From the NCBI GenBank assembly GCA_903877135.1, contig CAIRCN010000056.1:62001-126000 (forward strand): a stretch of DNA of 64,000 nt, written 5' to 3'. This document shows positions 5,604 to 41,242 of the stretch, piece after piece; position 1 is the stretch's first letter, and each line of letters opens with the position of its first letter. The translations under genes and the position numbers were made by a program. The stretch is from an uncultured Opitutia bacterium (lineage in GTDB: Bacteria > Verrucomicrobiota > Verrucomicrobiia > Opitutales > Opitutaceae). The notes below the pieces were generated by a model. It was not told the DNA's origin, did not search any database, and saw nothing but the letters and a program-made list of their open reading frames with translations.

Positions 5604-5615
5604 GTGGCGTGTGAC
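5588..5615. repeat. Heptamer tandem repeat over the prpD start (4 units)
   Basis: Units GTGTGAC, GTGTGAC, ATGTGGC and GTGTGAC occupy 5588-5615. They cover the ATG of prpD and part of the 36-base prpC-prpD gap, so both the ribosome entry region and the first codons are made of repeat. Related units occur at 45464-45491. Confidence 0.8.
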
Positions 5616-5639
5616 GAGTCTGTCAGCCGAGCCAGACGC

Positions 5640-6806: not shown

Positions 6807-6812
6807 GGGAAA

Positions 6813-9632: not shown

Positions 9633-9644
9633 GTGGGCCAGAGG
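9621..9644. terminator. Hairpin at the convergent ends of the permease and the cyclophilin-type gene
   Basis: CCTCTGGC (9621-9628) pairs with GCCAGAGG (9637-9644) around an 8-base loop that contains the permease stop codon. It lies between two convergent genes. No T-run follows on either strand, so termination is uncertain. Confidence 0.4.
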
Positions 9645-9654
9645 CGGAGGCCGA

Positions 9655-11709: not shown

Positions 11710-11925
11710 CGGCAGCGAGGTGAAAAGTAAAGACGGTGAGGCGAAGCGAAAGTTCCGGGCAAGGTTAAAAACTGGAAATTTACCCGGAACCAGTGCTGTT
11801 GATTGATTTCTGCAGCACGCTTGAACCGAAAATGAAAGTGGCACCATGTTGTCTGTGCGCTCCAACGCGGCTACATTTTTTTGAGTATGATCCAAGGATG
11901 GACACAACGAAAAACGGGAAAGGAA

Positions 11926-15366: not shown

Positions 15367-15397
15367 GCTGTTATTCGGGGTGGTTTGTAGTTTCCGG

Positions 15398-15425
15398 TTT
15401 TGGAGCAACGGGAGTTGTTCCAAAA
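15398..15425. promoter_or_regulatory. Long palindrome in the leader of the receptor gene
   Basis: Two 12-base arms, TTTTGGAGCAAC and GTTGTTCCAAAA, match at 11 of 12 positions around GGGA. The element lies 32 bases upstream of the receptor start. Because T's precede and A's follow the stem on both strands it is not an intrinsic terminator; an operator or an mRNA hairpin that controls the receptor is more likely. Confidence 0.5.
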
Positions 15426-15481
15426 GTCGGGAAAGTAAGGGAATTCTTAGGAACAAATGCAAGTAGTGAATTTTTGATTGT

Positions 15482-16522
15482 TCAGGCAACCGTCGGTTTG
15501 GGCGTTTCCATGGTCACCAGCGTCGGCGCCACAGTGATGCCAATGCGGCCAGTCGTCTGGGGATTGTCGATCCGCCACGCGAGGTGATCGACGACTTTGC
15601 GCAGAAGGGTCGGCAGGTTGATGTCGAGAGCGGCGGGGAGATGGTCGAGGTTGTGGTATATGACAGGATTGTAATTGCCCAGCACCGCCTCGAAGTCGCG
15701 CTCGGATTTCAGTCCGGCCTGGCGGAGCGAGCGGAAGAGCGAGCCGCAAAAATGGTCCACCGGCATGTAGAGCCCGGTGGGGCGGGGCGTAATCTGCAAC
15801 ATGCGGCGCACGAGCGAGTCGCTCTCCTCGTGCATAGGGGTGATTTCCAGATAGCTGACCCCGGGCCTGGCTTTGCCGAGGATGGTGCTGACAGCGAGGC
15901 CCAGTTCCCTGGCCCGCTCGGCAAAGGCCTTGATGCGCCATGCCACCGCACTGTAAGATGGATCCGTCGAGATGATGCCGAGGTTTTTATGCCCGCGACT
16001 GTGGAGAAAATCGGCGGCCAACCGGCCATTTAAGTCGTTATCCGGCTCCACGTAATCCCCGGCGTAAGAGGCAGTGCGCCGGGTCATGAACCACACGTGC
16101 GGAAAATCGCCCAGCTTCTGCAGACAGGCCGTCGAAGGCTCCATGCCCTGAATGATGACGCCGTCGACCAAATGCTCGGCTACCGCGCGCGGCAGCTCTT
16201 CAGGCGTGTCGGTGAACAGCACGCTCAAATCAATGCGCTGTCGCTCATTCGAGGGCTGCACCTGCAGGAGCTGATCCTGAAACCAGTTGAGGCTCGGGCT
16301 TTTCTTGGCACCGACAAACCAGACCCCTATTTTCTTGGGGGCGGCGAGCCGGGACTTGGGGCCGCGGCGGCGGTGCAAGGGCGTAGGCACGTAGTTCACG
16401 GCCGTCATGACGGCCTGCACACGGGCCAGCCGGTCGGGCGCGACCAGATGGGGTTGGTTGATGACGCGCGAGACGGTGGCTGGTGAGACCTTGGCCTTGC
16501 GGGCGATATCGGCAATAAGCAT
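15482..16522 (-). CDS. LacI family transcriptional regulator
   Basis: A 346-residue regulator. The first 50 residues are a LacI helix-turn-helix and hinge (MLIADIARKAKVSPATVSRV then INQPHLV). The rest is a periplasmic-binding-protein-like sugar sensor with GVIIQGME, RGHKNLGII and the C-terminal ligand-binding lobe. It lies between the receptor gene and the divergent glycan-degradation locus, so it probably controls both and possibly itself; candidate palindromic sites lie at 16551 and 17122. The inducing sugar cannot be read from the sequence. The start Met directly precedes the HTH. Confidence 0.92.
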   Translation of the reverse strand: MLIADIARKAKVSPATVSRVINQPHLVAPDRLARVQAVMTAVNYVPTPLHRRRGPKSRLAAPKKIGVWFVGAKKSPSLNWFQDQLLQVQPSNERQRIDLSVLFTDTPEELPRAVAEHLVDGVIIQGMEPSTACLQKLGDFPHVWFMTRRTASYAGDYVEPDNDLNGRLAADFLHSRGHKNLGIISTDPSYSAVAWRIKAFAERARELGLAVSTILGKARPGVSYLEITPMHEESDSLVRRMLQITPRPTGLYMPVDHFCGSLFRSLRQAGLKSERDFEAVLGNYNPVIYHNLDHLPAALDINLPTLLRKVVDHLAWRIDNPQTTGRIGITVAPTLVTMETPKPTVA

Positions 16523-17205: not shown

Positions 17206-19140
17206 ATGACCCTGAAATTGGTTTGTCCGCGCCTCATCATGGTCATGGCTATCGGCGCGCTTGCCGGCCAGATCGGAGCCGCCACACCGGTCTGTTCACC
17301 AACTGACCTGCCCGACGCAGAAATTGCACGTCGGTTTGAAGCCCGCCGGGAAGCCGTCCTCGCCAGAGCGACCGCCGTCATCGACCCTGCCCATCCGACC
17401 AGAGGAGGATTCATCGAGGTTGCCGCCTGTCTCCAACAGGGCGCACACCGGGAGGCGGCTCTAGCCCGGTTGGCTCAGCTCAATGCGCCGATGCCCGATT
17501 TGAACATGTTCTGGATGTTTCCGATGGCCGCCGTGATGGTCGCAGGACACGACGGTCTCGATCAAGCCTCGTGGGATCGGATTCAGGAGCTCTGGCGCGT
17601 TTACTGGCCCAGTCGCGGTGACACCGAGAACCACTGGTGCCTTTATTACTCCAGCCTCTATCTCGCGGCGCAAACGATGCCTGGGGCCGGCCCGGAGAAA
17701 TGGTTCAACGGCAAATCTTCCGCCGAAAACATGGCAGAGGCCAAATCCTACCTCGAACACTGGATGTGGGTGACGACGACTCACGGTCAGGGTGAATACG
17801 ATTCGCCAAATTACATCCAGGAATACCTGATTCCGATGAGCCTCCTGACCGGTTGGGCCAAGGACGATGCTTTCCGCCAAAAAGCCCGGATGATGCTCGA
17901 CTACCTGATCTACGATTACGCCGTGGAAAACGTCGACGGCTACTATGGCGGCGCGCACAGCCGCGTTTACCCCAAGCAGATCATCGCCCCGGGCAACACG
18001 CCCATCGCCGCCATCGGCTGGCTCCTCTTCGGCTTCGGCGAACAGATCCCCGATCCGGCCAACACCCTCATCGCGCTCAGCGGCTATCGGCCGCCGCCGA
18101 TCCTTGAGCGCGTAGCCCGCGACCGCTCCCGGCCCTACGTCGAACGCGAACTCAAGCGCACCCGCTGGCGCCTCCGCAACGCCGGCCCCGATTCCTTCGC
18201 GATCGGCGACAAGCGCACCGTGCCCGTCTACAAATACAGCTACGTCGACGCCGACTTCGTCCTCGGCTCCACGCAGGGCGGCCTCCTGCAACCCATCCAA
18301 CAGCAAACCTGGAGCCTCACTTGGCGCACCGACACGCGCGTCCAGGACGCCGCCAACACCTTCTTCGGCGTCCAGCCCTATTCGTCGCCCCTCGAGGGCA
18401 CGATGTTCTTCGGCGGCGACTGGGACACCGTGACCGATCTGATTGCGAGATCCAAGGCCGACTACGATTCCGAGGACAAGCTCCCCGGCGGCTCGCCCTA
18501 CGAGCAGGTGTTTCAGCACGGCACGGCGCTCATCGCGCTCTACGACATGCCGGCGCACAACCGCTTTCCACACATCACCACGTTTTTTTCGCGCGACCTC
18601 GTCAACACCATCGAGGACTCCTCGGGCTGGATCTTCACCCAAGGCGGTGCCGTCTACATCGCCTACCGTCCCTTCGCGCCCGGCACTTGGAAACCCAACG
18701 ACTGGACCGGCCTCCTGCGCCGCGGCACCGGTGGCTTCATCGGCGCGGGTTTCGCGCAATGGGGCGCCGGCAGCCGCTGCTACGTGAGCGACGCCCCGCG
18801 CAACGGCTACGTGGTCCAGGTCGCGCCCGCGCGCGATTTCGCCTCGTTCGCGGCCTTCCAAGCCGCCGTGCGCGCCCTGCCCCTGAAAATCTCCACCGCC
18901 GCGGCCCCGGAGGCCACCTTCACTGCCCTCGACGGCAGCGTGCTGCATGCGCGCTACGGCGACACTCCCTCGGTCAAAACCAAGCCGGTCGACTACGCGC
19001 ACTGGCCCCTGTTCGACAGTCCTTTCGCACACGAGATTCGCGGCAGCGAACGCTTGGAAATCCGCCACGGCGCACAGCGCTACCGGCTCGATTTCAAACG
19101 CACCCTGATCCAGGAAACCGTCAGCTCCGCGCAGCCATGA
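17206..19140 (+). CDS. Exported protein of an unassigned family (paralogue A)
   Basis: A 644-residue protein with a signal peptide (MTLKLVCPRLIMVMAIGALA, cut near GAA). I do not recognise the family. It shares with the products at 26419 and 28353 the motifs MFWMFP, SRGDTENHW, Y-S-SLYL, GKSSAEN, a GQGEYD segment, LKRTRWRLRN, the block SEDKLPGGSPYEQVFQHGTA, RFPHITTFFSRDLV and SGWIFTQGGAVYIAYRPFAP. The N-terminal half is helix-rich with Trp/His/Glu motifs and the C-terminal half is strand-rich, a layout like the alpha/alpha-toroid plus beta-sandwich of alginate and heparin lyases; this is inference. It is the most divergent of the three. First gene of the locus, overlapping the next by ATGA. The start was placed at the signal-peptide Met. 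Confidence 0.85.
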   Translation: MTLKLVCPRLIMVMAIGALAGQIGAATPVCSPTDLPDAEIARRFEARREAVLARATAVIDPAHPTRGGFIEVAACLQQGAHREAALARLAQLNAPMPDLNMFWMFPMAAVMVAGHDGLDQASWDRIQELWRVYWPSRGDTENHWCLYYSSLYLAAQTMPGAGPEKWFNGKSSAENMAEAKSYLEHWMWVTTTHGQGEYDSPNYIQEYLIPMSLLTGWAKDDAFRQKARMMLDYLIYDYAVENVDGYYGGAHSRVYPKQIIAPGNTPIAAIGWLLFGFGEQIPDPANTLIALSGYRPPPILERVARDRSRPYVERELKRTRWRLRNAGPDSFAIGDKRTVPVYKYSYVDADFVLGSTQGGLLQPIQQQTWSLTWRTDTRVQDAANTFFGVQPYSSPLEGTMFFGGDWDTVTDLIARSKADYDSEDKLPGGSPYEQVFQHGTALIALYDMPAHNRFPHITTFFSRDLVNTIEDSSGWIFTQGGAVYIAYRPFAPGTWKPNDWTGLLRRGTGGFIGAGFAQWGAGSRCYVSDAPRNGYVVQVAPARDFASFAAFQAAVRALPLKISTAAAPEATFTALDGSVLHARYGDTPSVKTKPVDYAHWPLFDSPFAHEIRGSERLEIRHGAQRYRLDFKRTLIQETVSSAQP

Positions 19141-20144
19141 ACGCCCCGCTCGCCCTCCTGCTCGCCCTCATCGTTTCGCTCCCGGCCACCGCCGGCGCCG
19201 CGGCGCCGGCGCATCAACTTTACGCCGCCGTCGCGATGACGAAGGCGCAGAAAAACAGCTCCACGCCGACCGACTCCGGCCTCTACACCCGCGCCCCCGA
19301 CGGCCAATGGACCCACTTCGGTCCCCGCGCACTCGGCGTCACCAGCATCGTCGTGCAGCCCGGCAGCGTCGGCCGGGTCATCCTGATTGGCTGCTCCGAC
19401 GGCGTCGTGCGCAGTGCCGATGGCGGCAAGACTTGGCGCAAAACCACCGGCTGGGAAGTTGCCGATGTCCGCGCCCTCGCCTTCGATGGCCAAAATTCCA
19501 GCGATGCCTACGCGGCCACCTGCTGGGGCCCGCTCCGCTCGACCGATGGCGGCGCAACCTGGGCACTCGCCCAAACCGGCCTGCCCAAACTCTACTGCCA
19601 GACGCTCGTCACCGACCCGCGGCAGCCCGGCCGCGTGCTGCTCGGCACCGAGGACGGCATCTACCTCTCCACTGACGCCGCCAAGACCTGGTCGCGCACC
19701 GCCAGTCCTGCCGCCTGCATCCTGCGCCTCGCGCGCAGCGCCGCCGACCCGCAGGTGCTTGTCGCCGCGACGCTCGCCCGCGGCGCCTGGCTCTCGTGCG
19801 ACAACGGTGACTCGTGGTCCGCGACCGACTCCGCCTCGGCCGCCGCCAACCTCTACGCCGCCGCCATCGATCCTGCCAACGGCGCGCACCTCGCCCTCGG
19901 CGGCTGGGCCGTCGGCGTCCGCATTTCGGCCGACGGCGGCAAGACCTGGACCGACCGCAGCGCCGGCCTCCCCGTGAAAAACATTTTTGTTCTCTCGTTC
20001 GATCCCGACGTCCATGGCCGCCTCTGGGCCTCAACCTTCGAAGAAGGCACCTTCTTCTCCGATGACCTCGGCGCCACCTGGCACGACGGCGGCCTCTACG
20101 GCGCCTATGGCTTCGATTTAACCTTTCTGCCGGTAACTCGCTGA
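19137..20144 (+). CDS. Exported Asp-box (BNR) beta-propeller protein 1
   Basis: A 335-residue protein with signal peptide MNAPLALLLALIVSLPATAG. At least six Asp-box motifs are visible: SADGGKTW, STDGGATW, STDAAKTW, SCDNGDSW, SADGGKTW and SDDLGATW, spaced as in sialidase or VPS10-type propellers. No sialidase catalytic Arg triad was identified, so binding or a different chemistry is as likely as hydrolysis. It is translationally coupled (ATGA) to paralogue A and resembles the product at 25378, which precedes paralogues B and C, so propeller and paralogue seem to work as a pair. Confidence 0.82.
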   Translation: MNAPLALLLALIVSLPATAGAAAPAHQLYAAVAMTKAQKNSSTPTDSGLYTRAPDGQWTHFGPRALGVTSIVVQPGSVGRVILIGCSDGVVRSADGGKTWRKTTGWEVADVRALAFDGQNSSDAYAATCWGPLRSTDGGATWALAQTGLPKLYCQTLVTDPRQPGRVLLGTEDGIYLSTDAAKTWSRTASPAACILRLARSAADPQVLVAATLARGAWLSCDNGDSWSATDSASAAANLYAAAIDPANGAHLALGGWAVGVRISADGGKTWTDRSAGLPVKNIFVLSFDPDVHGRLWASTFEEGTFFSDDLGATWHDGGLYGAYGFDLTFLPVTR

Positions 20145-20169
20145 TTCGCCCGCCGTCCTTTCCCTCACC

Positions 20170-22611
20170 GTGTCCGCCCAACCCTTCGTCAATTCCGCCT
20201 CGTGGATTTGGTCCAGCGAGGGTTCCCACAGCGCGCCCGCACCTAAAGACGCCTCGCCATCGCACTACCAGGTGCGCTACTTCCGCCGCACCTTCGACGT
20301 CGCCGACCCGGCGAAGGCCGCGCTCACCGTCGATCTCTCTGCCGACAGCCGCTACCTGTTTTTCTGCAACGGCGCCTTCGTCGGCCGCGGCCCCGCGAAG
20401 GGCGACGTAAACCACCACTTCTTCGACACCTTCAAGCTCACACCGCACCTCCGACGCGGCCGCAACGTTCTCGCCGCGCTCGTCCTCGACATGTCGCGCG
20501 TCGCGCACCGCCCCGCGCTGCTCGGCCCGCCCTGCTCGGTGATGACTTACACCGGTGGTTTCGTGCTCGAGGGCGCGCTGAAAACCAAATCAGGCAAGGT
20601 GCTCGAGGATCTGCGCACCGACGCCTCGTGGCGCGTCGCAGTCGACAAGGCGCACCGTTTCCAGAACGAGAACACCACCTTCGAGGGCTACCTCGGCTAC
20701 TTCGAGCATCGCGTCTCCGCGCTCATCCCCGCCGGCTGGAACGCACCAAAGTTCGACGACTCGTCGTGGCAGCCGGCGCACCTCCTGTTCAAGGCCGAGC
20801 TCCTCGAAAACCGCCGCGACCCCGCCAGCCCCTACGGCCTCATGCCGCGCATGATTCCGATGCTCGAGGAGGGCGCGCCCGCGCCGTTCCCCGACGCCTA
20901 CGCCAGCGGCGGCGGCGAAGTTTCCCCGGCGTGGAAAAAACTCCTCGCGAAAAACACCGCGCTCACCCTCAAGCCCGGCGATAAAATTGACCTCGTGCTC
21001 GACATGGGCGCGCTCACGACGGCGTTCCCGCACCTCGCCGTCTCAGGCGGCGCCGGCAGCACGATCCGCCTCACCTACGCCGAGGCCCTGCGCCTGCGCT
21101 GGGACACGCCCGACGCCAAACTCCTCGGCAAACAGCAGTCGCTCGCCAACCTCGCCTCGCATTTCGCCGATGAGAGCCGCGGCTGGACCTTCGACCGGCG
21201 CGGCCAGGTCAACGGCTGGGGCGATATCTGGGAACCCTCCGGCGGCGAAGAAGTGTTCGAGCCGTTGCACTGGCGTGCGTTTCGCTACATCGGCCTGCAG
21301 ATCACCGTCGGCAAGAAACCGCTCATGCTCCGCGCGGTGCAGCAGCGCTTCACCGCCTACCCGTATCGCGTGAAGGCGAAGTTCAAATCCTCTGATCCCG
21401 CGCTCGACAAAATCTGGACCGTGGGCCTGCACACTATGCGCATGTGCTCGCACGAGACCTTCGAGGACTGCCCGCACTACGAGCAGATGCAGTATGCCGG
21501 CGACACGATGATCACGTCGAAGCTGGCGATGTTCACCACCGGTGACTACCGCCTCAGCCGCCAGGCACTCTATCACTTCGACTGGTCGCGCCACTCCGAC
21601 GGCCTCACGCAGGCGCGCTATCCCTCGCGCCTCGTGCAGATCATCCCGGCGTGGAGCATTCACTGGATCACGAACATCAAGGACTACTTCAACTGCACCG
21701 GCGACCGCGCCACCGTGCAGGATCTGCTCCCCGGCATGCGCGCCGTCCTCGACTGGTATCGCCGCCACACCGATGCCGACGGCCTGCCCGCGAAGATGCC
21801 GTTCTGGAACATCACCGACTGGTGCCCGTGGTGGCCGCGCGGTGTCGTGCCCGGCGCCGACATCGGCCCGACCGCGATCCACTCCGCGCAATACATCAAC
21901 GCCCTCGACGAAGCCGCGTTTCTCCTCCGTCACTTCAACCGCACCACTGAGGCCGATGCGCTCTCCGCCGAAGCCGCCGCCCTCCGCCCGAAGGCCCACG
22001 CGCTTTTCTGGTCCGTGGCCGAGGGCCTCTACTTCGACCGCCCCGGCGGCCCCGAGGTCAGCCAGTATGGCAACGCCTGGGCCATCGTCGCCGGCCTCGC
22101 CGGCGAGCGCGAGCGCGCCATCGTCATGCGCCGTTTCCCCAACGACCCGAAGCTCGCGCCCGGCTCCTTTTTCTGGATGCACACCGGCTTCACCGCGCTC
22201 GCCAAGGCCGGCCGCTACGACGATATGCCGCAGCACCTCGGCCCGTGGCACGAGTCGGTCGGCTACGGGCTCTCCACCTTCGTCGAGGAGAACAGTTACT
22301 GGCGCTCGCTCTGCCACGCATGGTCCGCGCAACCCGTGCTCGAGTTCCAGCAGCGCATCCTCGGCGTCACGCCCGCCGAGCCGGGCTTCGCGCGCCTCGC
22401 CATCGCGCCGCATCGCTGTGGCCTCACCCACGCCGCCGGCAGCGTCTGCACGCCGCACGGCCTGGTTGAGGTCGCGTGGCGCGTCGCCGACGGAAAATTT
22501 CATCTCACCGTCACGAAGCCCGCCGACCTTCCCGCGACGGTCACCGTCCCCGGCGGTGCCACGCGCGAATTCACCGCCGCGCATTTCGAGGAAACCTTCT
22601 CCCTTTCATGA
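20170..22611 (+). CDS. GH78-like alpha-L-rhamnosidase
   Basis: An 813-residue protein without signal peptide, so probably cytoplasmic. N-terminal beta-sandwich domains (WIWSSEGS, RYFRRTFDV, LSADSRYLFFCNGAFVGRGP) precede a six-hairpin (alpha/alpha)6 catalytic domain and a C-terminal beta domain. The catalytic region reads ETFEDCPHYEQMQYAGD, a variant of the GH78 DCPxRxERxGWxGD motif that keeps the acidic residues but replaces the Arg and Trp. It would remove terminal L-rhamnose from imported oligosaccharides. The start is GTG at 20170, matching the beginning of the family fold. Substrate could differ from rhamnose because of the altered motif. Confidence 0.85.
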   Translation: MSAQPFVNSASWIWSSEGSHSAPAPKDASPSHYQVRYFRRTFDVADPAKAALTVDLSADSRYLFFCNGAFVGRGPAKGDVNHHFFDTFKLTPHLRRGRNVLAALVLDMSRVAHRPALLGPPCSVMTYTGGFVLEGALKTKSGKVLEDLRTDASWRVAVDKAHRFQNENTTFEGYLGYFEHRVSALIPAGWNAPKFDDSSWQPAHLLFKAELLENRRDPASPYGLMPRMIPMLEEGAPAPFPDAYASGGGEVSPAWKKLLAKNTALTLKPGDKIDLVLDMGALTTAFPHLAVSGGAGSTIRLTYAEALRLRWDTPDAKLLGKQQSLANLASHFADESRGWTFDRRGQVNGWGDIWEPSGGEEVFEPLHWRAFRYIGLQITVGKKPLMLRAVQQRFTAYPYRVKAKFKSSDPALDKIWTVGLHTMRMCSHETFEDCPHYEQMQYAGDTMITSKLAMFTTGDYRLSRQALYHFDWSRHSDGLTQARYPSRLVQIIPAWSIHWITNIKDYFNCTGDRATVQDLLPGMRAVLDWYRRHTDADGLPAKMPFWNITDWCPWWPRGVVPGADIGPTAIHSAQYINALDEAAFLLRHFNRTTEADALSAEAAALRPKAHALFWSVAEGLYFDRPGGPEVSQYGNAWAIVAGLAGERERAIVMRRFPNDPKLAPGSFFWMHTGFTALAKAGRYDDMPQHLGPWHESVGYGLSTFVEENSYWRSLCHAWSAQPVLEFQQRILGVTPAEPGFARLAIAPHRCGLTHAAGSVCTPHGLVEVAWRVADGKFHLTVTKPADLPATVTVPGGATREFTAAHFEETFSLS

Positions 22612-23468
22612 GCACACTCAGCCTCCAGCACGACCTCGGCCGCGCCGTCACCCTCTTCGCTGGCGACGGGCTGCTCTGCCGCTACGTCTACGCGCCCCAG
22701 ACCGCGGCCAACGAATCACCCAAGCCCTATTTCCATCCGCTCAACTCGCTCGCCGGCGACACGCTGACGAACTTCCGCCCCAACGACCACCCCTGGCACC
22801 ACGCCCTGAGTCTCACGCTGGACAACGTTTCGGGCGCGAATTTCTGGGGCGGCCCCACCTGCGAGCGCGGCGACGGCTACAAGTGGCGCGATGACCACGG
22901 TTCGCAAAATCACCTCGCGTGGACCAAGCTCGAAGCCGCCGGCACCACCGCCGCCCTCGCCCACTCGCTTGAGTGGCGGAGGCTCACAGAAATTTTCTTC
23001 CGCGAAGAGCGCACCATTGACATTGCGGTCGACCTTGCCGCGCACTCGTGGTCACTGCGTTGGCGCAGCCAGCTCACCAACACCAGCGGCCGCACGCTCT
23101 CGCTCGGCAATCCCCACTCGCACGGCGGCCTCGCCGGCTCGCACTACACCGGCCTGCAGTTCCGCGGCGCGCGCGAGCTGCTCGACGACCACGGTGACGC
23201 CGCGATCAAGATCGTCGCCGAGGGCGGCCTGGAGGGCATCCCAGTCGTGCACGGCACGCTGGCGCGCTGGATGGAATGGCACGGGCAGCTCGACCAGACG
23301 CTCCATCGCGTTATCATCCGTTTCGAAAACAACCCCGGTCCGCTGCACTGGTTCGTGCGCCGCAACTACCCCCTCGCGGCCTTCCCCTTTCAATTCGACC
23401 AAAACCTCGATCTCGCGCCGGGTGCCAATTTCGCGCTCGATCACACCCTCACGTTCACCTCCCCATGA
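22608..23468 (+). CDS. DUF6807 (PmoA-like) family protein
   Basis: A 286-residue soluble protein with no signal peptide, overlapping the rhamnosidase gene by ATGA and the next gene by ATGA. FHPLNSLAGDTLTNFRPNDH followed by PWHHALS and GNPHSHGGLAGSHYTGLQFR are characteristic of the family annotated as methane oxygenase PmoA or DUF6807, which occurs in glycan-degradation loci of Bacteroidota, Planctomycetota and Verrucomicrobiota. The name is historical and does not imply methane oxidation. Conserved His residues suggest metal or sugar binding; the reaction is unknown. Confidence 0.8.
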   Translation: MSTLSLQHDLGRAVTLFAGDGLLCRYVYAPQTAANESPKPYFHPLNSLAGDTLTNFRPNDHPWHHALSLTLDNVSGANFWGGPTCERGDGYKWRDDHGSQNHLAWTKLEAAGTTAALAHSLEWRRLTEIFFREERTIDIAVDLAAHSWSLRWRSQLTNTSGRTLSLGNPHSHGGLAGSHYTGLQFRGARELLDDHGDAAIKIVAEGGLEGIPVVHGTLARWMEWHGQLDQTLHRVIIRFENNPGPLHWFVRRNYPLAAFPFQFDQNLDLAPGANFALDHTLTFTSP

Positions 23469-24769
23469 ACCTCAATCGAAGAAATTTCGTTCGCAGTCTC
23501 GGCGTCGGCGCTCTGGGCACGCTCGCCGCTCCGGCATTGTTTTCCAAGGACCAGCTAGTCGTGCCACCCGCCCCGTTCACCCCCAAACCGCTCCCTGCCT
23601 ACGACCCCAAACACGACGCCGATTTCTGGCGCGCCGTCCGCGCGCAGTTTCCGCTGCTCGACGAACCGGTCTATCTGAATACCGGTGGCCTCGGCCCGGC
23701 TTCGCAGCCCGTGCTCGAAAAAGTTTTTGCCACCATGAGGGCGTTGCAAAAACACTCCGAGACCGGACACAAATCCTTCGATCCCGCCCGCCAGACCATG
23801 GCGCGCTTCCTCGGCGTCACGTCGGACGAAGTGTGCTTTACGCGCAACGCCACCGAGGGTAACTGCATCATCGCCGCGGGGCTGGAAATGCGCCCCGGCG
23901 ACGAGGCTATTCTTGAGTCTCACGCCCATCCCGGCGGGTCTTACCCGTGGTTAAACCAGGCTCTGCAGGCCGGTATCAAAGTGCGCCTGTTTGATCCCGA
24001 CCCCGCGAGTCCCGGGGGCAACATCGCCCGCATTCGTGCGCTCGTCACGCGGCGCACTAAGGTGATTCAGGTGAGCCACATCACCTGCACCACCGGGCTC
24101 GTGATGCCGGTGCACGCCATCGCGGAGTATGCCCAAGCCCACGGCCTCTGGTTCCACATCGATGGTGCCCAGGCCGCCGGCATGATCCCGCTCAACCTCG
24201 ACGCGATCGGCTGCGACTCCTACGCGTTCAGCGGCCACAAGTGGCTCGGTGGGCCGCATGAGACAGGGGTGCTCTACCTCCGGCACTCGCGCCTCGAGGA
24301 CATTGCTCCGACGGGCATCGGCGCCTACTCGGGCGAGTTGCTGCGTCTGCCGGGCGAACTGAAATACTCCGCCGCCGCCTCCCGTCACGAATACGGCACG
24401 CGCAACGCCGGGCTCGTCGCCGGCCTCGCGGAAGCGGTGCGCTTTCAGGAACAAATCGGCCGCGACCGCATCGCCGCGCATGGCCGCGAACTATCGTCGT
24501 GGCTGCTCCGCGAGCTCGGAAAAATCAAAGGCATTGAAATGCTGACCCCTCAGCACGACGAGTTGCGCGCCTCGATGACCACGATCCGTCATACACGTGC
24601 CAACGCCGACAAATTCTTCGAATACCTAATGAAAACACACCGGCTGCGTTGCCGGCCCGTGACCGAGCAGGGACTGGAAGCCGTGCGTATCTCAACCCAC
24701 GTTTTCAATTCGCACCCCGAGTGCGACCGCGTCATCGCCGCCGTGCAGGCCTCCGCCCGCGACCTGTAA
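23465..24769 (+). CDS. Tat-exported class V aminotransferase-fold PLP enzyme
   Basis: A 434-residue protein. The N-terminus NRRNFVRSLGVGALGTLAAP is a twin-arginine signal, which fits an enzyme exported with its cofactor. The fold is that of class V aminotransferases (isopenicillin-N epimerase / cysteine desulfurase-like): YLNTGGLGPAS, TRNATEGNCIIAAGLEMRPG, the Asp in FHIDGAQAAG, and the PLP Lys in SGHKWLGGPHETG. The C-terminal VRISTHVFNSHPECDRVI is typical of the epimerase-like group. It is joined by ATGA to the DUF6807 gene. The natural substrate is unknown. An exported RidA is encoded convergently just downstream, which may be functionally relevant because RidA proteins hydrolyse the reactive enamines that PLP enzymes release. 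Confidence 0.85.
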   Translation: MNLNRRNFVRSLGVGALGTLAAPALFSKDQLVVPPAPFTPKPLPAYDPKHDADFWRAVRAQFPLLDEPVYLNTGGLGPASQPVLEKVFATMRALQKHSETGHKSFDPARQTMARFLGVTSDEVCFTRNATEGNCIIAAGLEMRPGDEAILESHAHPGGSYPWLNQALQAGIKVRLFDPDPASPGGNIARIRALVTRRTKVIQVSHITCTTGLVMPVHAIAEYAQAHGLWFHIDGAQAAGMIPLNLDAIGCDSYAFSGHKWLGGPHETGVLYLRHSRLEDIAPTGIGAYSGELLRLPGELKYSAAASRHEYGTRNAGLVAGLAEAVRFQEQIGRDRIAAHGRELSSWLLRELGKIKGIEMLTPQHDELRASMTTIRHTRANADKFFEYLMKTHRLRCRPVTEQGLEAVRISTHVFNSHPECDRVIAAVQASARDL

Positions 24770-24784
24770 GCGATGTCGCCGCGC

Positions 24785-25315
24785 TCAATCCGCCACTTCC
24801 GCGACCAGCTCAATTTCCACCGGTGCACCGGCAGGCAGCGCAGCCACCCCCACGGCGGCACGTGCGTGCCGGCCCTTGTCGCCAAACACCGCCACGAGCA
24901 AATCACTCGCGCCGTTCACCACCTTCGGCTGCGCGGTGAAATCGGCCGTGCAGTTCACAAAACCGCCGACGCGCACGATCCGTTTCACCTTCGCGAGATC
25001 ACCAACCTCCGCCTTCAACACGGCGAGGAGTTGGATCGCACAGGTCCGCGCCGCCTCGGCACCCTGCGCCTCCGTGAAATCGCGGCCGACCTTGCCAGCA
25101 ATGATCTTGCCATCGGCGCCCTTCGCCACCTGCCCCGCCAGAAACAACAGGTGCTCACTGCGCACCGCCGGCACGTAGTTGGCGATCGCCGCCGGCACCG
25201 GCGGCAGCGTCACTCCGAGCGCTGCAAGCTTTTGCTCGGGTGTGGTTGCGTCCGCCGCGTGGACCGAGGAGAGTGTGCAGAGAACCATTACCAAAAACAC
25301 CAATTTTCTTTTCAT
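24785..25315 (-). CDS. Exported RidA family protein
   Basis: A 176-residue protein with signal peptide MKRKLVFLVMVLCTLSSVHA, then a RidA/YjgF domain: HLLFLAGQVAKGADGK, IVRVGGFVNCTADF, and the C-terminal HARAAVGVAALPAGAPVEIE that carries the conserved substrate-binding Arg. RidA enzymes deaminate 2-aminoacrylate and similar enamines or imines. Most are cytoplasmic; this one should be periplasmic. It is the only minus-strand gene inside the 17-37 kb locus, lying between the PLP enzyme gene (15 bases away) and the second propeller gene. Confidence 0.85.
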   Translation of the reverse strand: MKRKLVFLVMVLCTLSSVHAADATTPEQKLAALGVTLPPVPAAIANYVPAVRSEHLLFLAGQVAKGADGKIIAGKVGRDFTEAQGAEAARTCAIQLLAVLKAEVGDLAKVKRIVRVGGFVNCTADFTAQPKVVNGASDLLVAVFGDKGRHARAAVGVAALPAGAPVEIELVAEVAD

Positions 25316-25377
25316 CTTGGCGCCTAGCCATGCCCGCTCGTCCGACGCGCCGCAACGTCAGAACTTCATTTTCAGCC

Positions 25378-26394
25378 ATGACCAAAATCAAAATGTCTCT
25401 CCTCCTCGGCTCGCTGCTCACCGCCACCGCGCTCGCCGGCACCGCGCCCAAGCACGACCTGCTGCTCTGCGCCGCCATCAACAAAAACTACGTCATCGGA
25501 TCGAAGATCGTCACACAAAACGGCATCTTTCAGCGCGGGAGCGACGGGAGTTTCCAGCACATCGGCCTCAACTTCCCCAGCATTCTCAATCTCTCGGCCG
25601 ACCCGCGTGACCCGCGCGTCTTCTATCTGGCCACGCTTAACGGTTGCGTGTTCACCAAGGACGGCGGCCAGACTTGGCGCATCGGCACCAGCTGGGATAT
25701 GACCGAGCCGAAGGATGTGTGCGTCGACCCCAACGCGCCCGACAACATCTACCTCGCGCTGCCCGATGGCATCGCCGTCTCGCCCGATCGCGGCGCCACC
25801 TGGCCTCGCCGCGAAAACGGCCTGCCCAACCGCGGCAAATACACCCAAACCATCGAGGTGGACCGCACCACCGCCGGCCGCGTCCTCGCCGGCTGCGAAT
25901 CTGGCATCTACCTCACTGAAGACGGCGCACAGTCGTGGCACCGCTTGCTGCCAACGAAAGCAGCCGTGGATGATATCGAGCAGTCGCCGCTCGACCCGCA
26001 ACTCTGGCTCACCGTCACGCAAAGCGATGGCGCGCACCTCTCGCATGACGGCGGCCGCACTTGGCAGAAAATTCCCGGCGTGCCCGCGGACGAGGCGCTC
26101 TACAACGTTGCGTTCGACGCCACCAATCCCCAGCGCTGGGCCATCGCAAGCTGGCACTACGGCGTCCTCACCACCGAGGACGGCGGCCACACCTGGACCG
26201 CGCGCAACGCCGGCCTGCCTGCTGACGGGCACGTCTTCAAACTCGGCATCGATCCCGACACCGGCCGCCTCTACGTCAGCGTTTACCAGAACGCCATCCA
26301 CGTCTCTGATGACTTCGGTCGCACGTGGCGCGCCGCCGGCCTCGAAGGCTCCTCCGTCTATAATTTCGTCTTCGTGCCCAAGACGGCGAAGTAA
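25378..26394 (+). CDS. Exported Asp-box (BNR) beta-propeller protein 2
   Basis: A 338-residue protein with signal peptide MTKIKMSLLLGSLLTATALA. Asp-box motifs include TKDGGQTW, SPDRGATW, TEDGAQSW, SHDGGRTW, TEDGGHTW and SDDFGRTW. It parallels the product at 19137 in length, opening (KHDLLLCAAINKN versus HQLYAAVAMTK) and end (VYNFVFVP versus GFDLTFLP), so the two are paralogues. It stands immediately before paralogues B and C, 24 bases upstream of B. Probably a glycan-binding or glycan-acting propeller in the periplasm or at the surface. MSLLLG, five codons in, is an alternative start. Confidence 0.82.
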   Translation: MTKIKMSLLLGSLLTATALAGTAPKHDLLLCAAINKNYVIGSKIVTQNGIFQRGSDGSFQHIGLNFPSILNLSADPRDPRVFYLATLNGCVFTKDGGQTWRIGTSWDMTEPKDVCVDPNAPDNIYLALPDGIAVSPDRGATWPRRENGLPNRGKYTQTIEVDRTTAGRVLAGCESGIYLTEDGAQSWHRLLPTKAAVDDIEQSPLDPQLWLTVTQSDGAHLSHDGGRTWQKIPGVPADEALYNVAFDATNPQRWAIASWHYGVLTTEDGGHTWTARNAGLPADGHVFKLGIDPDTGRLYVSVYQNAIHVSDDFGRTWRAAGLEGSSVYNFVFVPKTAK

Positions 26395-26418
26395 CCTACC
26401 TCCCGCGCCTCACCGAAC

Positions 26419-28311
26419 ATGAAAGCCCATTCTCTTTTCGTTTCCTGCCTCGCCATTCTCTCGTCCGCCTCGCTTTACGCGCAGCCTGCCTACGAGGCCC
26501 CGCCGCCCTCGCGCGCCGTCGTCGACAGCGCAGACTTTCGCCGCGCCGCCTATCTCCAACGCATCGACGAGGTGCTCACGTGGCGCGTCGGTCAGCTCAA
26601 GCCCGACGACGCCCTCCTCCCTGACATGGGCGCCATCGCCGCCAAGCTCGCACGCCACGAGGACGCCGACCTCTGCTCGCGCAGCGTCATCGCGCAGATG
26701 AAGGAGCCTGGTAGCGGCCCGTTCTGGATGTTCCCCGCCGTCTGCGTCGCCTACCTCGGCCGCGACCAGCTCTCGCCCGCCGCGCGGCAGGCGATCCGCG
26801 ACGCCTGGCGCACGCAGATGCAGCTCCGCGGCGACACCGAGAATCACTGGGCGATGTATTACACCTCGCTCTACCTGATGTCGGAGCTTTATCCCAACGA
26901 ACCCGCCAGCACCTGGTATTCCGGAAAAAGCTCCGCCGAGAATCTCGCCGAGGCGCGCGACTATCTCATCCATTGGATGGACCTCGCCACCACCATCGGC
27001 CAGGGCGAATACACCTGCTCCCACTACATCGGCGAATACGCGATTCCCATGCTCTTCCTAGCCTCGTGGGCCAAGGACCCCGCCATGCGTCAGCGTAGCC
27101 ACATGATGCTCGACTGGCTCTTCGCCGACCAGTTCGCCAACTCCCTCAACGGCGTCCTCCACGGCGCCAACGCCCGCACCGACGACACCGGCGTGGTCGA
27201 GCGCTGGAACTGCCTCTCGTCCTTCTTCAGCTGGCTCCTCCTCGGCAACACCCCGCCGCCCGCCGGCTACGGTGGCTGGGGCGTCTACTTCGCCGCCGCG
27301 GCGAAAAACTACGAGTTGCCCGAAGTCATCTATCGCATCGGCGTCGACCGCGACGGCGATTTTCTCCAGCGCGATCTCAAGCGCACGCGCCGCCGCTGGC
27401 GCAATAGCGACGTCTTCATGGCGCCGGTTTACAAGATGAACTACACCCGTCGCGACTACGCCGTTGGCTCCTTCCAGAGCGGCCTGTGCGATCCGATCCA
27501 GACGCACGTCTGGGACATCACCTGGGCCGTGCCCGATCCGCGCGGCGTGCACAACACCATGTTCTCGATGCACCCCGTCTCCTCGTCCTTCGACATGCAG
27601 ACCTACTTCACCGAGTTTCCCGACCACATGATGCAGGGCGTCACCAAGGAGGGCAAAGCCTCCTACGACTCGCCCGACAAGTTCCTCGGCGGCTCGCGCT
27701 TCGAACAGGTCGTGCAGGACCTCGACACCGTCATCGCACTCTACGACATCCCGCCCGGCACGCGCTTCCCGCACATCAACGGCTTTTTCTCAAAAGACCT
27801 CGTCCACCTTACCATCGACAAGTCCGGCTGGATCTTCGCGCAGGGCGGCCACACCTACCTCGCCTACCGTCCGCTCGCACCCTATGAAATGCTGCCGGTG
27901 GCGCACATCAAATCCTCGTGGACCGGCGAGCGCGTCGACTCCGGCGACAAGCGCCTCTACAGCCCGCACCTGAAGAATGGCACCATCGTGCAGGCCGCCA
28001 GCGCGGACGAGTTCAAGAGTTTCGACGCCTTCAAAACCGCCATCAACGCGCTCCCCCTCGAGTTCAGCCTCGAACCAAATCCGACGGTGAAACTGATCAC
28101 ACTCCGCGGCAAAAACATCGTCTTCACCTATAATCAGCCACCGCAGATCGATGGCCATGTGCGCGACTACGCCTCGGAGTGGAAACTTTTCCAAGGCCCC
28201 TACCTCAACGCCGAGAAGAACTCCCGCCGCCTCACTCTCACGCACGGCCGTCTGCAGCGCGTCCTCGATTTCAACACCCTCACGATCACCGACACTGTCT
28301 TGCCCAACTAA
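26419..28311 (+). CDS. Exported protein of an unassigned family (paralogue B)
   Basis: A 630-residue protein with signal peptide MKAHSLFVSCLAILSSASLY (cut near AQP). Family not recognised. It is very similar to the product of the next gene and more distantly to that at 17206. Shared elements: PFWMFP, LRGDTENHWAMYYTSLYLMS, YSGKSSAENLAEA, GQGEYTCSHYIGEYAIPM, the segment RTDDTGVVERWNCLSSFFSW, LKRTRRRWRN, the block SYDSPDKFLGGSRFEQVVQD and RFPHINGFFSKDLV. The conserved Asp-Thr-Glu-Asn-His-Trp and Gly-Gln-Gly-Glu-Tyr stretches are good candidates for an active site. Helical N-terminal and beta C-terminal halves suggest a polysaccharide lyase or glycosidase-like fold, unproven. Confidence 0.85.
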   Translation: MKAHSLFVSCLAILSSASLYAQPAYEAPPPSRAVVDSADFRRAAYLQRIDEVLTWRVGQLKPDDALLPDMGAIAAKLARHEDADLCSRSVIAQMKEPGSGPFWMFPAVCVAYLGRDQLSPAARQAIRDAWRTQMQLRGDTENHWAMYYTSLYLMSELYPNEPASTWYSGKSSAENLAEARDYLIHWMDLATTIGQGEYTCSHYIGEYAIPMLFLASWAKDPAMRQRSHMMLDWLFADQFANSLNGVLHGANARTDDTGVVERWNCLSSFFSWLLLGNTPPPAGYGGWGVYFAAAAKNYELPEVIYRIGVDRDGDFLQRDLKRTRRRWRNSDVFMAPVYKMNYTRRDYAVGSFQSGLCDPIQTHVWDITWAVPDPRGVHNTMFSMHPVSSSFDMQTYFTEFPDHMMQGVTKEGKASYDSPDKFLGGSRFEQVVQDLDTVIALYDIPPGTRFPHINGFFSKDLVHLTIDKSGWIFAQGGHTYLAYRPLAPYEMLPVAHIKSSWTGERVDSGDKRLYSPHLKNGTIVQAASADEFKSFDAFKTAINALPLEFSLEPNPTVKLITLRGKNIVFTYNQPPQIDGHVRDYASEWKLFQGPYLNAEKNSRRLTLTHGRLQRVLDFNTLTITDTVLPN

Positions 28312-28352
28312 CCTAGTATCGGGAGTGTGCTGTCCGCCGCAGCTTCGCGCCG

Positions 28353-30203
28353 ATGAAACTATTTCCCCGTTGCATCGCCGCATTCTGCGCGCTCGCGGGA
28401 GCATCCGTTGTGGCGCAGCCATCGTTCACCGCTCCCTCGCCGCAGCCTCGAATCGTCGAGCGTGCTGACCAGCGACAGTCTGAATATCTTGCCCGGATCA
28501 ACGAGGTTCTCGTATGGCGCGCGAGCCTGGCGCATGCCAGCCGGCCTGAGTCCCTCGGCTACGCCGAGATCGCCGCGAAGCTGGCCCTCCGCCAGGACGC
28601 CGCCCGGTGCTCGCAGCGACTCGTCGCACTGCTGCGTGAGCCGCCGAACGGCGACATGTTCTGGATGTTTCCGATGGTGTGCATCTCGTTCCTCGGGCGC
28701 GACCAGCTCTCCGCCGAGGCGCAGGCCGCGATCCGCGCCGCCTGGCGCAGCTATTTCCCTTCGCGCGGTGACACTGAGAACCACTGGGCGATGTATTACA
28801 CCTCGCTCTACCTCATGTCGGAGCTCTACCCGAACGAGCCCGCCGGCAGTTGGTATTCCGGCAAGTCTTCCGCCGAAAACCTCGCCGAGTCGCTCGACTA
28901 CCTCGTCAGTTGGATGGACCTCACAACATCTATCGGCCAGGGCGAATACAACTGCACCCAATATATCGGGGAATACACAATCCCGATGCTCTACCTGGCG
29001 ACGTGGGCACACGATCCCGCGATGCGGCAGCGCGGACGGATGATGCTCGACTGGCTGCTCGCGGAATATTCCGAAAACACCCTCGACGGCCTCTCCATCG
29101 GCGCCCACGCCCGCACGGACGACACGCAGGTGCTCGAAAAATGGAATGGCCTCTCGTCGTTCTACTCCTGGCTGCTGTTCGACAACTGTCCGCCGCCCGA
29201 CGGCTACGGCGGCTGGGGCGTATTTTTCGCGGCGGTGGCCACCAACTACGACTTGCCCGAGGTCATCTACCGAATCGGCACCGACCGGCCCGATGCCGCG
29301 CTCCAACGCGACCTCAAGCGCACCCGTAACCGCTGGCGCAACAGCCCCGTCCGCCGCGCCCCTGTCTACAAAACCACCTATCTGAAGCACGACTACGCAG
29401 TCGGCTCCGACCAAGGCGGCCTCAACCAGCCGAGCCAGCTGCATTCGTGGGACGTCACCTGGGCCGTGCCTGATCCGCGCAGCCGGCACAACACCATGTT
29501 CTCCCTGCAACCCTACTCGGCGGTCGCCGCCCTCCAGATGTATTACACCGAGCTGCCGGGCAATCTGCTCCCCGCCGTGGTGCGCACACGGCCCAGCTAC
29601 GACTCGCCCGACAAGTTCCTCGGCGGCTCGCCCTACGAGCAGGTTTTCCAGGACCTCGATACCGTTGTCGCGCTCTACAACATCACCCCCGGCACCCGCT
29701 TCCCGCACGTCAACGGCTTCTTCTCGCGCGAACTCGTGCAACTCACCGAGGACCCTTCAGGTTGGATATTCGCGCAGGGCGGCCGCTGTTACCTCGCCTA
29801 CCGGCCGCTCGCACCGTTTGAGTGGATTCCGACTACCCAGGGCGATCGGCGGCTCTACAGCCCGCATCTGCAGAATGGCACGATTCTGCAAGCCGCGTCG
29901 GCAGCTGAGTTCTCGGATTTTGGTGCGTTCCAGCGGGCGATCCGCGCACTGCCTCTCACCATGCAAATGGAGCCCGTGCCCTCTGTCGCGCTGCACACGC
30001 TGCGAGGCACCGAACTCGTCTGCACCTACGGTCAGCCGCCCATCGTCAACGGCCGGGTGGTAGATTATGCCGCGTGGAAACTCTTCGAGGGGCCGTTCCT
30101 CAACGCCGCGCGCGACTCCCATCGGCTTACGATCACCCACGGCCACCTGAAACGCGTGCTCGATTTCAACACGCTTACCGTTTCCGATTCCGTCACACCC
30201 TGA
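28353..30203 (+). CDS. Exported protein of an unassigned family (paralogue C)
   Basis: A 616-residue protein with signal peptide MKLFPRCIAAFCALAGASVV (cut near AQP). It follows paralogue B by 41 bases and is clearly a tandem duplicate of it: both have GDTENHWAMYYTSLYLMSEL followed by YPNEPA, GGWGV, LPEVIYRIG, AVPDPR and SYDSPDKFLGG. It lacks the insertion found in B around HIKSSWTGERVDSG. It keeps all motifs shared by the three proteins. The next gene, encoding a cytoplasmic GH51 enzyme, begins 6 bases after its stop, so the exported and intracellular steps are probably transcribed together. Confidence 0.85.
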   Translation: MKLFPRCIAAFCALAGASVVAQPSFTAPSPQPRIVERADQRQSEYLARINEVLVWRASLAHASRPESLGYAEIAAKLALRQDAARCSQRLVALLREPPNGDMFWMFPMVCISFLGRDQLSAEAQAAIRAAWRSYFPSRGDTENHWAMYYTSLYLMSELYPNEPAGSWYSGKSSAENLAESLDYLVSWMDLTTSIGQGEYNCTQYIGEYTIPMLYLATWAHDPAMRQRGRMMLDWLLAEYSENTLDGLSIGAHARTDDTQVLEKWNGLSSFYSWLLFDNCPPPDGYGGWGVFFAAVATNYDLPEVIYRIGTDRPDAALQRDLKRTRNRWRNSPVRRAPVYKTTYLKHDYAVGSDQGGLNQPSQLHSWDVTWAVPDPRSRHNTMFSLQPYSAVAALQMYYTELPGNLLPAVVRTRPSYDSPDKFLGGSPYEQVFQDLDTVVALYNITPGTRFPHVNGFFSRELVQLTEDPSGWIFAQGGRCYLAYRPLAPFEWIPTTQGDRRLYSPHLQNGTILQAASAAEFSDFGAFQRAIRALPLTMQMEPVPSVALHTLRGTELVCTYGQPPIVNGRVVDYAAWKLFEGPFLNAARDSHRLTITHGHLKRVLDFNTLTVSDSVTP

Positions 30204-30209
30204 TCTTCC

Positions 30210-31712
30210 ATGCCTCGCGCCCAACTTACCGTCCACACTACCGAGTCCGGCCCGGTCATCGACCGGCACATCTTCGGCCACTTCGCGGAACATCTCGGCC
30301 GCTGCATCTACGACGGCCTCTGGGTCGGCGAAAACTCTTCGGTCCCCAACATCCGCGGCTGGCGCAGCGACCTCGTCGCCGCGCTGAAACAGATCCGCAT
30401 CCCCAACCTCCGCTGGCCGGGCGGCTGCTTTGCCGACGACTACCACTGGCGCGACGGCATCGGCCCGCGCGAAAAACGCCCGCGCCGCGTCAACGCCCAC
30501 TGGGGCGGAGTCGTTGAGAGCAACGCCGTCGGCACGCACGAGTTCCTCGATCTCTGCGAACAGATCGGCTGCGAGCCCTACCTCGCCGGCAACGTCGGCA
30601 GCGGCTCGCCGCGCGAACTGCGTGAGTGGGTCGAGTATTGCAACGCCACCGCCGGCACCCTCGCCGAGGAACGCGCCACCAACAGCCGCCGCGACCCGTG
30701 GAAGGTCCGCCTTTGGGGCGTCGGCAACGAGACCTGGGGCTGCGGCGGCAACATGACGGTCGAGTATTACGCCAACGAGTATCGCCGCTTCGCCACTTAC
30801 ACGCGCGATTTCCCGAACGCCCCGCTCTACCGCATCGCCAGCGGTGCCCGCAACGACGACTACCACTGGACCGAGGTGATGATGCGCGAGGCTTTCAAGG
30901 GCCCGATCGGCGGCCCGATCCTGCAGGGCCTCTCGCTCCACTACTACACCGTGCCCGGCGACTGGCCGCCGAAGCATCCCGCCACCGGCTTCGACCACGC
31001 CGGCTGGAACTGGGTCATGGCCCTCGGCTGGAAAATGGACGAATACGTCCGCGGCCACCGCGCCGCGATGGACCGCTACGATCCCGCCGAAAAAACCGCC
31101 CTCGTCGTGGACGAATGGGGCTCGTGGTATGCCGTCGAGTCAGGGACCAACCCCGGTTTCCTCTACCAGCAGCAGACCGTGCGCGACGCCGTCCTCGCCT
31201 CGCTCACACTCAACATCTTCATCAACCACTGCGAACGCGTCCGCATCGCCAACCTCGCCCAGCTCGTCAACGTCCTCCAAGCCGTGGCGCTCACCGAGGA
31301 AGGCGGCGGTCGCCTCGTCCTCACGCCGACCTGGGACGTCCTCGCACTCTACGCCGCACACCAAGACGCCCGCCGCCTGTCCGTGCACAGCGACGCCGCC
31401 ACACTCAAGCACGACGGCATGCCCTACCCCGCCGTCTCCGCCACCGCCTCGCTCGCCGCCGACCACACCATCACCGTCACGGTCTGCAACACCGACCCCG
31501 CCGCGCCCGCCGAGATCACCCTCACCCTCGTCGACCGCGCCCCGGTTGTCGCCGACGCCCGCGTCCTCGCCTCCGCCGACCTAACCGCCTGCAACACCAT
31601 CGCCCAACCCCGCGCCGTCACCACCCGCCCGCTCGATGGCGTGCGCGTGAGCGGCCAGCAGATTTCCGTTTCTCTCCCCCCCGGCGCTGTCGCCTCGCTG
31701 CGCTTCTCATGA
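30210..31712 (+). CDS. GH51 alpha-L-arabinofuranosidase
   Basis: A 500-residue cytoplasmic enzyme that removes alpha-L-arabinofuranosyl residues with retention. The fold markers are HIFGHFAEHLGRCIYDGLWV, RWPGGCFADDYHWRDGIGP, the acid/base Glu174 in GVGNETWGCGG and the nucleophile Glu302 in VVDEWGSWY; the C-terminal beta domain is complete. Length is normal for GH51. It overlaps the GH127 gene by ATGA, and the two probably act together on arabinose-containing oligosaccharides with alpha and beta linkages. Confidence 0.93.
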   Translation: MPRAQLTVHTTESGPVIDRHIFGHFAEHLGRCIYDGLWVGENSSVPNIRGWRSDLVAALKQIRIPNLRWPGGCFADDYHWRDGIGPREKRPRRVNAHWGGVVESNAVGTHEFLDLCEQIGCEPYLAGNVGSGSPRELREWVEYCNATAGTLAEERATNSRRDPWKVRLWGVGNETWGCGGNMTVEYYANEYRRFATYTRDFPNAPLYRIASGARNDDYHWTEVMMREAFKGPIGGPILQGLSLHYYTVPGDWPPKHPATGFDHAGWNWVMALGWKMDEYVRGHRAAMDRYDPAEKTALVVDEWGSWYAVESGTNPGFLYQQQTVRDAVLASLTLNIFINHCERVRIANLAQLVNVLQAVALTEEGGGRLVLTPTWDVLALYAAHQDARRLSVHSDAATLKHDGMPYPAVSATASLAADHTITVTVCNTDPAAPAEITLTLVDRAPVVADARVLASADLTACNTIAQPRAVTTRPLDGVRVSGQQISVSLPPGAVASLRFS

Positions 31713-41077: not shown

Positions 41078-41242
41078 GGGGTGCGAGGTTGAGGGCAGCG
41101 TAGCGTCCCGCTGCACCCCGTGCAAGAACCCGCCCGCCGGTTCCTCCACTATACGCCGAAAGGGTGAAACAGGCCCCGGGCACGCCCAAAACACCCCTCG
41201 GCCATTGCGCCGGCGCCGGCCATCGCTATCTCCTGTCGCATC

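Follow-up and report, generated by a model that had tools for sequence, protein, structure and literature searches.

A candidate family of secreted toroid-type polysaccharide lyases with an Asp-box propeller partner in a Verrucomicrobiota glycan locus

What do three paralogous exported proteins of no assigned family do in a bacterial glycan locus, and why do Asp-box propellers lie beside them? The question is raised by a 64,000-nucleotide stretch of DNA from an uncultured Opitutia bacterium (assembly GCA_903877135.1, contig CAIRCN010000056.1, positions 62,001 to 126,000), hereafter the window, whose own coordinates are used below. We consider it probable (roughly 0.72) that the three proteins, paralogues A, B and C, are secreted polysaccharide lyases built of an N-terminal (alpha/alpha) toroid and a C-terminal beta-sandwich and that the propeller is their fixed partner. 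The genes concerned are:

17206-19140, +: paralogue A, toroid-lyase-like, A clade; 644 residues; Gln at the position of His363 of B; lyase-then-propeller order
19137-20144, +: propeller 1, exported Asp-box propeller; its ATG overlaps the stop of A by 4 nucleotides
25378-26394, +: propeller 2, exported Asp-box propeller; ends 24 nucleotides before B
26419-28311, +: paralogue B, toroid-lyase-like; 630 residues; N142, H143, Y203, R253 and H363
28353-30203, +: paralogue C; 616 residues; B-clade residues as in B

All three paralogues are real open frames of 616-644 residues, as the initial annotation had reported, with B and C sharing 63 % identity and B and A 39 %. Of the motifs it had listed as shared, RGDTENHW, GKSSAEN, GQGEY and RFPHxxxFFSxxLV are common to A, B and C; LKRTRxRWRN occurs unaltered in B and C, its counterpart in A being LKRTRWRLRN. 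The claimed coupling of A to propeller 1 is borne out by the 4-nucleotide overlap, and adjacency to a propeller, claimed for each paralogue, holds for A and B but not for C, which lies 41 nucleotides behind B and adjoins no propeller. Lyase-lyase tandems like that of B and C (28353-30203) also occur at loci L026, L045 (with partly split frames) and L055. By eye, A, B, C and both propellers have a signal-peptide-like N-terminus, and across the window and 74 related loci (described below) a signal-like segment was found in 111/112 family members and 114/114 propellers with an examinable start, these counts resting on a hydropathy heuristic rather than a signal-peptide predictor.

The AlphaFold2 model of B, made with a 37-sequence alignment (predicted local distance difference test, pLDDT, 92.8; predicted TM-score 0.91), is helical to about residue 310 and mainly beta-stranded thereafter, i.e. 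an alpha/alpha toroid followed by a beta-sandwich. A Foldseek search of the PDB with this model, a check that the initial annotation had proposed, returned toroid polysaccharide lyases in all of its first 27 rows (26 with E <= 0.001, best 1.3e-7), followed at row 28 by an unrelated structure (E 7.2e-3). These 27 rows cover polysaccharide lyase (PL) families 8, 12, 15, 33, 35 and 39 and one entry titled 'chondroitinase', the family numbers being taken in part from titles and papers. VIA-align matched B to many lyases, PL17 included, with Z 8-11 over 387-470 residues (GAGase VII, 8khw: Z 11.3, 5.7 Å, 416 residues; Dp0100, 6jp4: Z 10.4, 5.5 Å, 444 residues). The lyases match both domains of B, whereas toroid hydrolases match the toroid domain alone.

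Profile comparison by hhalign against 21 Hepar_II_III proteins, collected with their own Pfam model (Hepar_II_III_N), gave Prob 80 and a score of 54.9 and placed N142 on an Asn and Y203 on a Tyr of the templates. This template pair is 54 residues apart, the same spacing as that of N240 and Y294 of PL12 heparinase III (Table 4, PMC12088678). In the controls, 100 column shuffles reached a maximum of 26.7 against 52.4 for the unshuffled profile, the reversed profile scored 15.4, and sets of glycoside hydrolase (GH) families GH78 (16.3) and GH127 (17.8), TonB, pyridoxal phosphate (PLP) enzyme and M28 proteins spanned 13.7-17.8.

Residue conservation was counted over the 82 distinct proteins (38 core and 44 divergent) of an 89-row alignment. 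N142 and R253 are present in 82/82, Y203 and E197 in 81/82, R48 in 78/82 and H143 in 69/82 (38 core and 31 divergent). His363, in the beta domain, occurs in 96/96 distinct members of the B clade, where H143 and H363 are the only conserved histidines; this clade-wise count overturned our previous conclusion, drawn from mixed clades, that no beta-domain His is conserved. Trp365, two residues further on, is invariant in 37 sequences. At position 363, the 20 distinct members of the A clade carry Gln (19) or Glu (1); they retain Y203 and R253 (20/20) as well as N142-H143 (17/17 of those reaching that far). Y198 had been considered as the catalytic Tyr (spacing 55); it is Phe in L099 and falls outside the nearly invariant residues, and Y203 was kept. 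In B, Y203 and H363 are 160 residues apart, and the corresponding Tyr-to-His spacing is 153 in PL33 (Y291, H444) and 155 in PL35 GAGase II (Y246, H401) (PMC12088678, PMC11848413).

Library searches set the proteins apart from the families of Pfam and NCBIfam. A, B and C matched no Pfam family and no NCBIfam model (E up to 1), including the heparinase II/III-type Pfam models PF16889 and PF07940 (PL12, 15, 17 and 21), and 37 members searched against Pfam returned just eight unrelated weak matches (best E 0.096). Nine distant relatives likewise had no Pfam match, among them a fourth, distant family copy found on another contig of the window's own genome (L173, C20:220856-222361). A sequence search of the PDB gave nothing meaningful (best E 0.019 for B alone and 0.42 for a 37-row profile), and neither the lyase family nor its pairing with a propeller was described in the titles or abstracts of the matches listed from open-licence PubMed Central. 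Since the fold and residues resemble those of toroid lyases yet none of their Pfam models is matched, A, B and C are put forward as a candidate new lyase family. The initial annotation had suggested a new lyase or glycosidase family; the fold, the conservation and the profile comparison with its controls favour the toroid lyase and disfavour the glycosidase.

A pattern scan of one genome per species (84,980 species) yielded 318 stretches encoding relatives, of which the best 80, i.e. the best-scoring part of the relatives, gave the 74 loci analysed here. All 74 come from records whose titles name Verrucomicrobia, Opitutae, Opitutia, Opitutales or genera of that group. None of the 26 pattern matches in viral contigs proved to be a relative. 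Of 387 genomes sampled from the phylum, 55 had a match: 22 encode the core family (E <1e-250), and in 33 the members are divergent, with piecewise matches (best E 1e-30). This survey scored at most three candidates per genome and therefore gives minimum copy numbers.

In the core family, the lyase appears to have the Asp-box propeller as a constant secreted partner. A propeller lies on the same strand within 300 nucleotides of 109/112 near-full-length family genes in the 74 loci (two near-duplicates being kept in the count); in two of the three exceptions the propeller lies at 330 and 457 nucleotides, and the last starts 32 nucleotides from a contig end. As the loci were picked by the lyase alone, this count is not circular. 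In the 387-genome survey, the core lyase (E <1e-250) and the propeller (E <1e-100) were found in the identical 22 genomes, with thresholds chosen after the gap had been seen (next best 1e-30 for the lyase and 2e-39 for the propeller); four other genomes had weaker propeller matches only (E 2e-39 to 3e-31). Propellers 1 and 2 are the strong ones among the four propeller matches in the window's own genome. The initial annotation had named rare co-occurrence as the finding that would speak against such a partnership, and the pairing proved instead to be the rule (109/112 genes, 22/22 genomes). The two proteins also occur as natural fusions in other genomes:

8316-11282, -: lyase-propeller fusion at L182 (genome G271), 989 codons; in the A clade
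2956-5940, +: lyase-propeller fusion at L206 (genome G091), 995 codons
3737-6916, +: lyase-propeller fusion at L207 (genome G018), 1060 codons

The lyase comes first in all three, as it does in A and propeller 1, and all three carry the A-type Gln by eye. On inspection by eye, the usual signal peptide also seems to be missing and the lyase part to contain an insertion. The trees of the two proteins correspond: over 116 distinct lyase-propeller pairs (121 rows less five duplicates), a mirror-tree comparison gave r 0.89 against a maximum of 0.18 in 500 permutations, both trees place the same members in the A clade, and gene order tracks the clade with three exceptions in 121 rows.

Several observations count against reading these proteins as lyases with a fixed propeller partner. 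Foldseek gave low TM-scores (0.23-0.44), for partly helical models a VIA-align Z of 8-11 is middling, and a helical GH8 enzyme (1cem) reaches Z 10.5 on the toroid alone. For PL35 GAGase II against PL8 or PL23 enzymes, we read the published values as DALI Z 10.5-14.3 (PMC12088678), suggesting that Z near 11 is attainable between separate families of the clan. The hhalign probability is 3.5 with the 37 core sequences, the divergent members being needed to reach 80, and a PL8 set of 20 proteins gave Prob 0.3, though it has the fold in common. The superfamily as a whole lacks a common beta-domain His, position 363 in the 44 divergent members being Arg (15), His (8), Ser (5) or others. On the side of the partnership, the mirror-tree correlation partly reflects species history, the 40 stretches surrounding divergent members yielded no propeller, and four family copies have none within 7.5-9.6 kb on each side, three of them (L173, L176 and L177) being distant at 541-632 bits and the fourth (L180; G091:C1:3766000-3785000) close at 940 bits. 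These divergent stretches and propeller-less copies indicate that the pairing marks the core family and not the whole superfamily.

Could the toroid belong to something other than a lyase? It is common to GH8 and other hydrolases, an arabinanase (8ic6, Z 9.3) joining 1cem in matching the toroid domain, many hydrolases are encoded in the locus, and all 38 core members carry the acids E197 and E429, as would be expected of (alpha/alpha)6 glycoside hydrolases with two carboxylates. Across the 82 distinct members, however, E197 alone stays, E429 being lost in most of the divergent ones. The lyases match both domains where the hydrolases match one, and profiles of GH78 and GH127 built from these loci reach only 16-18 against 52-55 for the heparinase set; we therefore regard a hydrolase as improbable. 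Still more improbable, to the point of being a marginal candidate, is a uronate C5-epimerase of the same fold. Dermatan sulfate epimerase 1 (DS-epi1, 6hzn) aligns with Z 9.6 over 460 residues and is grouped by fold with these lyases (PMC11848413), but several lyases score equally or higher, the proteins are secreted from a catabolic locus with hydrolase neighbours, and three copies of an epimerase there would lack a reason.

For the polysaccharide lyase that we favour, B and C would most likely act by beta-elimination on a uronate glycan, cutting the bond at C4 of the uronic acid. Judged from conservation, Asn142, perhaps with Arg253, would neutralise the uronate carboxylate, Tyr203 would serve as proton donor or shuttle, and His363 would either activate the Tyr or act as the base. 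Paralogue A may work differently. With Gln in place of His363 and with Asn142-His143, Tyr203 and Arg253 kept, the base in A could be the Tyr alone or His143, and A may act on another uronate or linkage than B and C do. Both kinds of base have precedent: Tyr is acid and base on D-glucuronic acid in PL12, PL21 and PL33, and a His is the base on L-iduronic acid in PL15 (H311) and PL21 (H202) (PMC11848413).

The propeller would most likely be a glycan-binding subunit, or one that positions the glycan for the lyase. Both propellers match BNR/Asp-box and Sortilin-Vps10 models (PF02012: 41.2 and 34.8 bits, cut-off 27), and beyond the usual Asp-box residues R101 (116/121), W106 (117/121) and Asp/Glu110 (121/121) are conserved, which may mark a ligand site. 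The same three residues could form an active site if the propeller were a separate enzyme of the same pathway, such as a GH74-, sialidase- or PL42-like exo-enzyme, and formed no complex with the lyase; in PL42, the propeller itself is the catalyst, and GH33 sialidases are marked by an Arg triad, an Asp acid and a Tyr/Glu pair. The closest solved fold to the propeller model (pLDDT 91.8), among entries whose titles bear a function, is 3b7f, a putative glycosyl hydrolase with BNR repeats (Z 30.6, 2.8 Å, 297 residues), with GH74 next, and both propellers match the F510_1955 family glycosylhydrolase model NF045728 weakly (110.5 and 93.1 bits, under its curated cut-off of 175). Against this stand the three fusions and the strict adjacency, which suggest a joint unit, and the GH74 cleft lies between two propellers; we consider an independent enzyme possible but doubtful. 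Alternatively, the propeller might protect or mature the lyase, in the manner of DAIP and Ycf48, which have inhibitor- or chaperone-like roles for their partners and rank with the closest solved chains in both sequence and fold. The likeness is one of the propeller fold, and such a role seems quite improbable.

If the propeller presents a glycan to the lyase, the neighbouring genes may indicate which glycan. Counts below are of loci, among the 74, with a homologue:

11986-15489, -: TonB-dependent receptor-like protein; NCBIfam matches all below cut-off; 24/74
15482-16522, -: LacI-type regulator by reading of the sequence; 29/74
20170-22611, +: GH78 alpha-L-rhamnosidase; signal sequence not seen; 56/74
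22602-23468, +: DUF6807 protein (scanned as 22476-23468); signal sequence not seen; 58/74
23465-24769, +: class-V PLP enzyme; twin-arginine signal by eye; 63/74
24785-25315, -: RidA/YjgF-like protein, exported; 57/74, with a hydrophobic N-terminus in 57/57
30210-31712, +: GH51-type alpha-L-arabinofuranosidase; below NCBIfam cut-off; 19/74
31700-33634, +: GH127 (frame as scanned); best NCBIfam match aceric acid hydrolase, below cut-off; 28/74
33634-35043, +: M28 peptidase (frame as scanned, start likely further inside); signal-like start; 50/74

More than 20 kb was available for 37/74 loci, the remainder being shortened by contig ends. Over the 45 loci listed, the usual order is LacI/TonB, a lyase-propeller pair, GH78, DUF6807, PLP enzyme, RidA, one to three propeller-lyase pairs, GH51, GH127 and M28; a GH36 homologue occurs in 2/74. 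Our best guess at the substrate is a glycan that contains rhamnose and uronate and perhaps bears an amino acid part. The initial annotation had proposed a rhamnose/arabinose-rich glycan, of which the rhamnose is well matched by GH78 (56/74) and the arabinose-rich part less so by GH127 (28/74) and GH51 (19/74), rhamnose with an acidic sugar being the better fit.

Among the starts that could be examined, a hydrophobic N-terminal segment was found in 3/51 GH78, 0/43 DUF6807 and 0/11 GH51 proteins; the PLP enzyme homologues have a twin-arginine motif in 31/62 and the lysine motif in 62/62. From these patterns, it seems that the polymer is cut and the PLP/Rid step carried out outside, with the sugars trimmed inside, and lyase products would enter the cytoplasm, where GH78, GH51 and GH127, all three with no signal sequence seen, would complete the breakdown. 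On a separate contig, the window's own genome also encodes a single GH88-type protein (unsaturated uronyl hydrolase), which could act on the lyase product.

The PLP and RidA genes rank with the best-conserved neighbours and occur together in 55/65 loci having either; no title or abstract among the literature matches listed described a periplasmic PLP/Rid step in glycan breakdown. We offer, as a speculative and rather unlikely extension, that a two-protein lyase with the Asp-box propeller as built-in subunit works with an exported PLP enzyme, an exported RidA-like deaminase and an exported peptidase to dismantle an amino-acid-bearing rhamnose/uronate glycan outside the cytoplasm, the lyase cutting the chain and the PLP/Rid pair removing the amino acid part.

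Two further features of the window are noted here. The glycan locus is flanked at 4122-7649 and 39878-47740 by methylcitrate-type genes (MmgE/PrpD, citrate synthase, phosphoenolpyruvate mutase) and by methylmalonyl-CoA mutase, MeaB, carboxyl transferase and AtuA-type genes; a link between this propionate metabolism and rhamnose breakdown is possible. A 750-residue protein with a cyclophilin domain and Ig-like domains is encoded at 9655-11907 (-).

Were this assignment to hold, the toroid clan would gain a lyase family in Verrucomicrobiota, found here mostly in lake, groundwater and other environmental genomes, together with a lyase that has a fixed propeller partner, the natural fusions making the pairing directly testable. 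The A clade, with Gln/Glu for His and with Asn, His, Tyr and Arg kept, would be a natural experiment on the base used for D- and L-uronates, and the conserved PLP/RidA pair would hint at a glycan structure not yet considered.

The closest known systems are found in the toroid lyase clan (PL35 8khw/8khv, PL33 BT4410, PL39 Dp0100, PL15, PL17, PL12 and PL21), which has the toroid and beta-sandwich in common with the family described here. The toroid Asn and Tyr are 53-57 residues apart in the clan and 61 here (PMC12088678), the adjacent Asn-His (N142-H143) recurs in PL39 (N186-H187) and PL15 exoHep (N336-H337) (Table 4, PMC12088678), and the beta-domain His of B and C lies at a distance similar to the clan's. 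Unlike the clan, the present family has an invariant Arg253, Gln/Glu for His in its A clade and no Pfam match, and it has a fixed propeller partner, of which the accessible portions of PMC12088678 and PMC11848413 make no mention for the clan.

The PL40 ulvan lyase Uly1040 likewise has a toroid and a beta domain, as in B; its Asn245 and Tyr305 are 60 residues apart against 61 here, it acts on a rhamnose-uronate polymer, and it uses Asp358, His485 and His487 with manganese (PMC12915356). The PL40 set of His-x-His (H485, H487) and D358, mapped by motif and distance from the same paper, is absent from the family, which differs from Uly1040 in having an invariant Trp two residues after H363 and Arg253 at roughly the Asp358 distance. 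PL40 homologues are distributed over Bacteroidota (92.6 %) and Pseudomonadota (4.8 %) (PMC12915356). As for the propeller, Reut_B4987 (3b7f, 'putative' by title only) and GH74 share its fold, GH74 chains of 685-778 residues being about twice its length. Finally, PL42, an L-rhamnose-alpha-1,4-D-glucuronate lyase (PMC8377490, PMC10951650), also involves a propeller fold; unlike in PL42, the lyase-like residues here lie in the toroid protein and not in the propeller.

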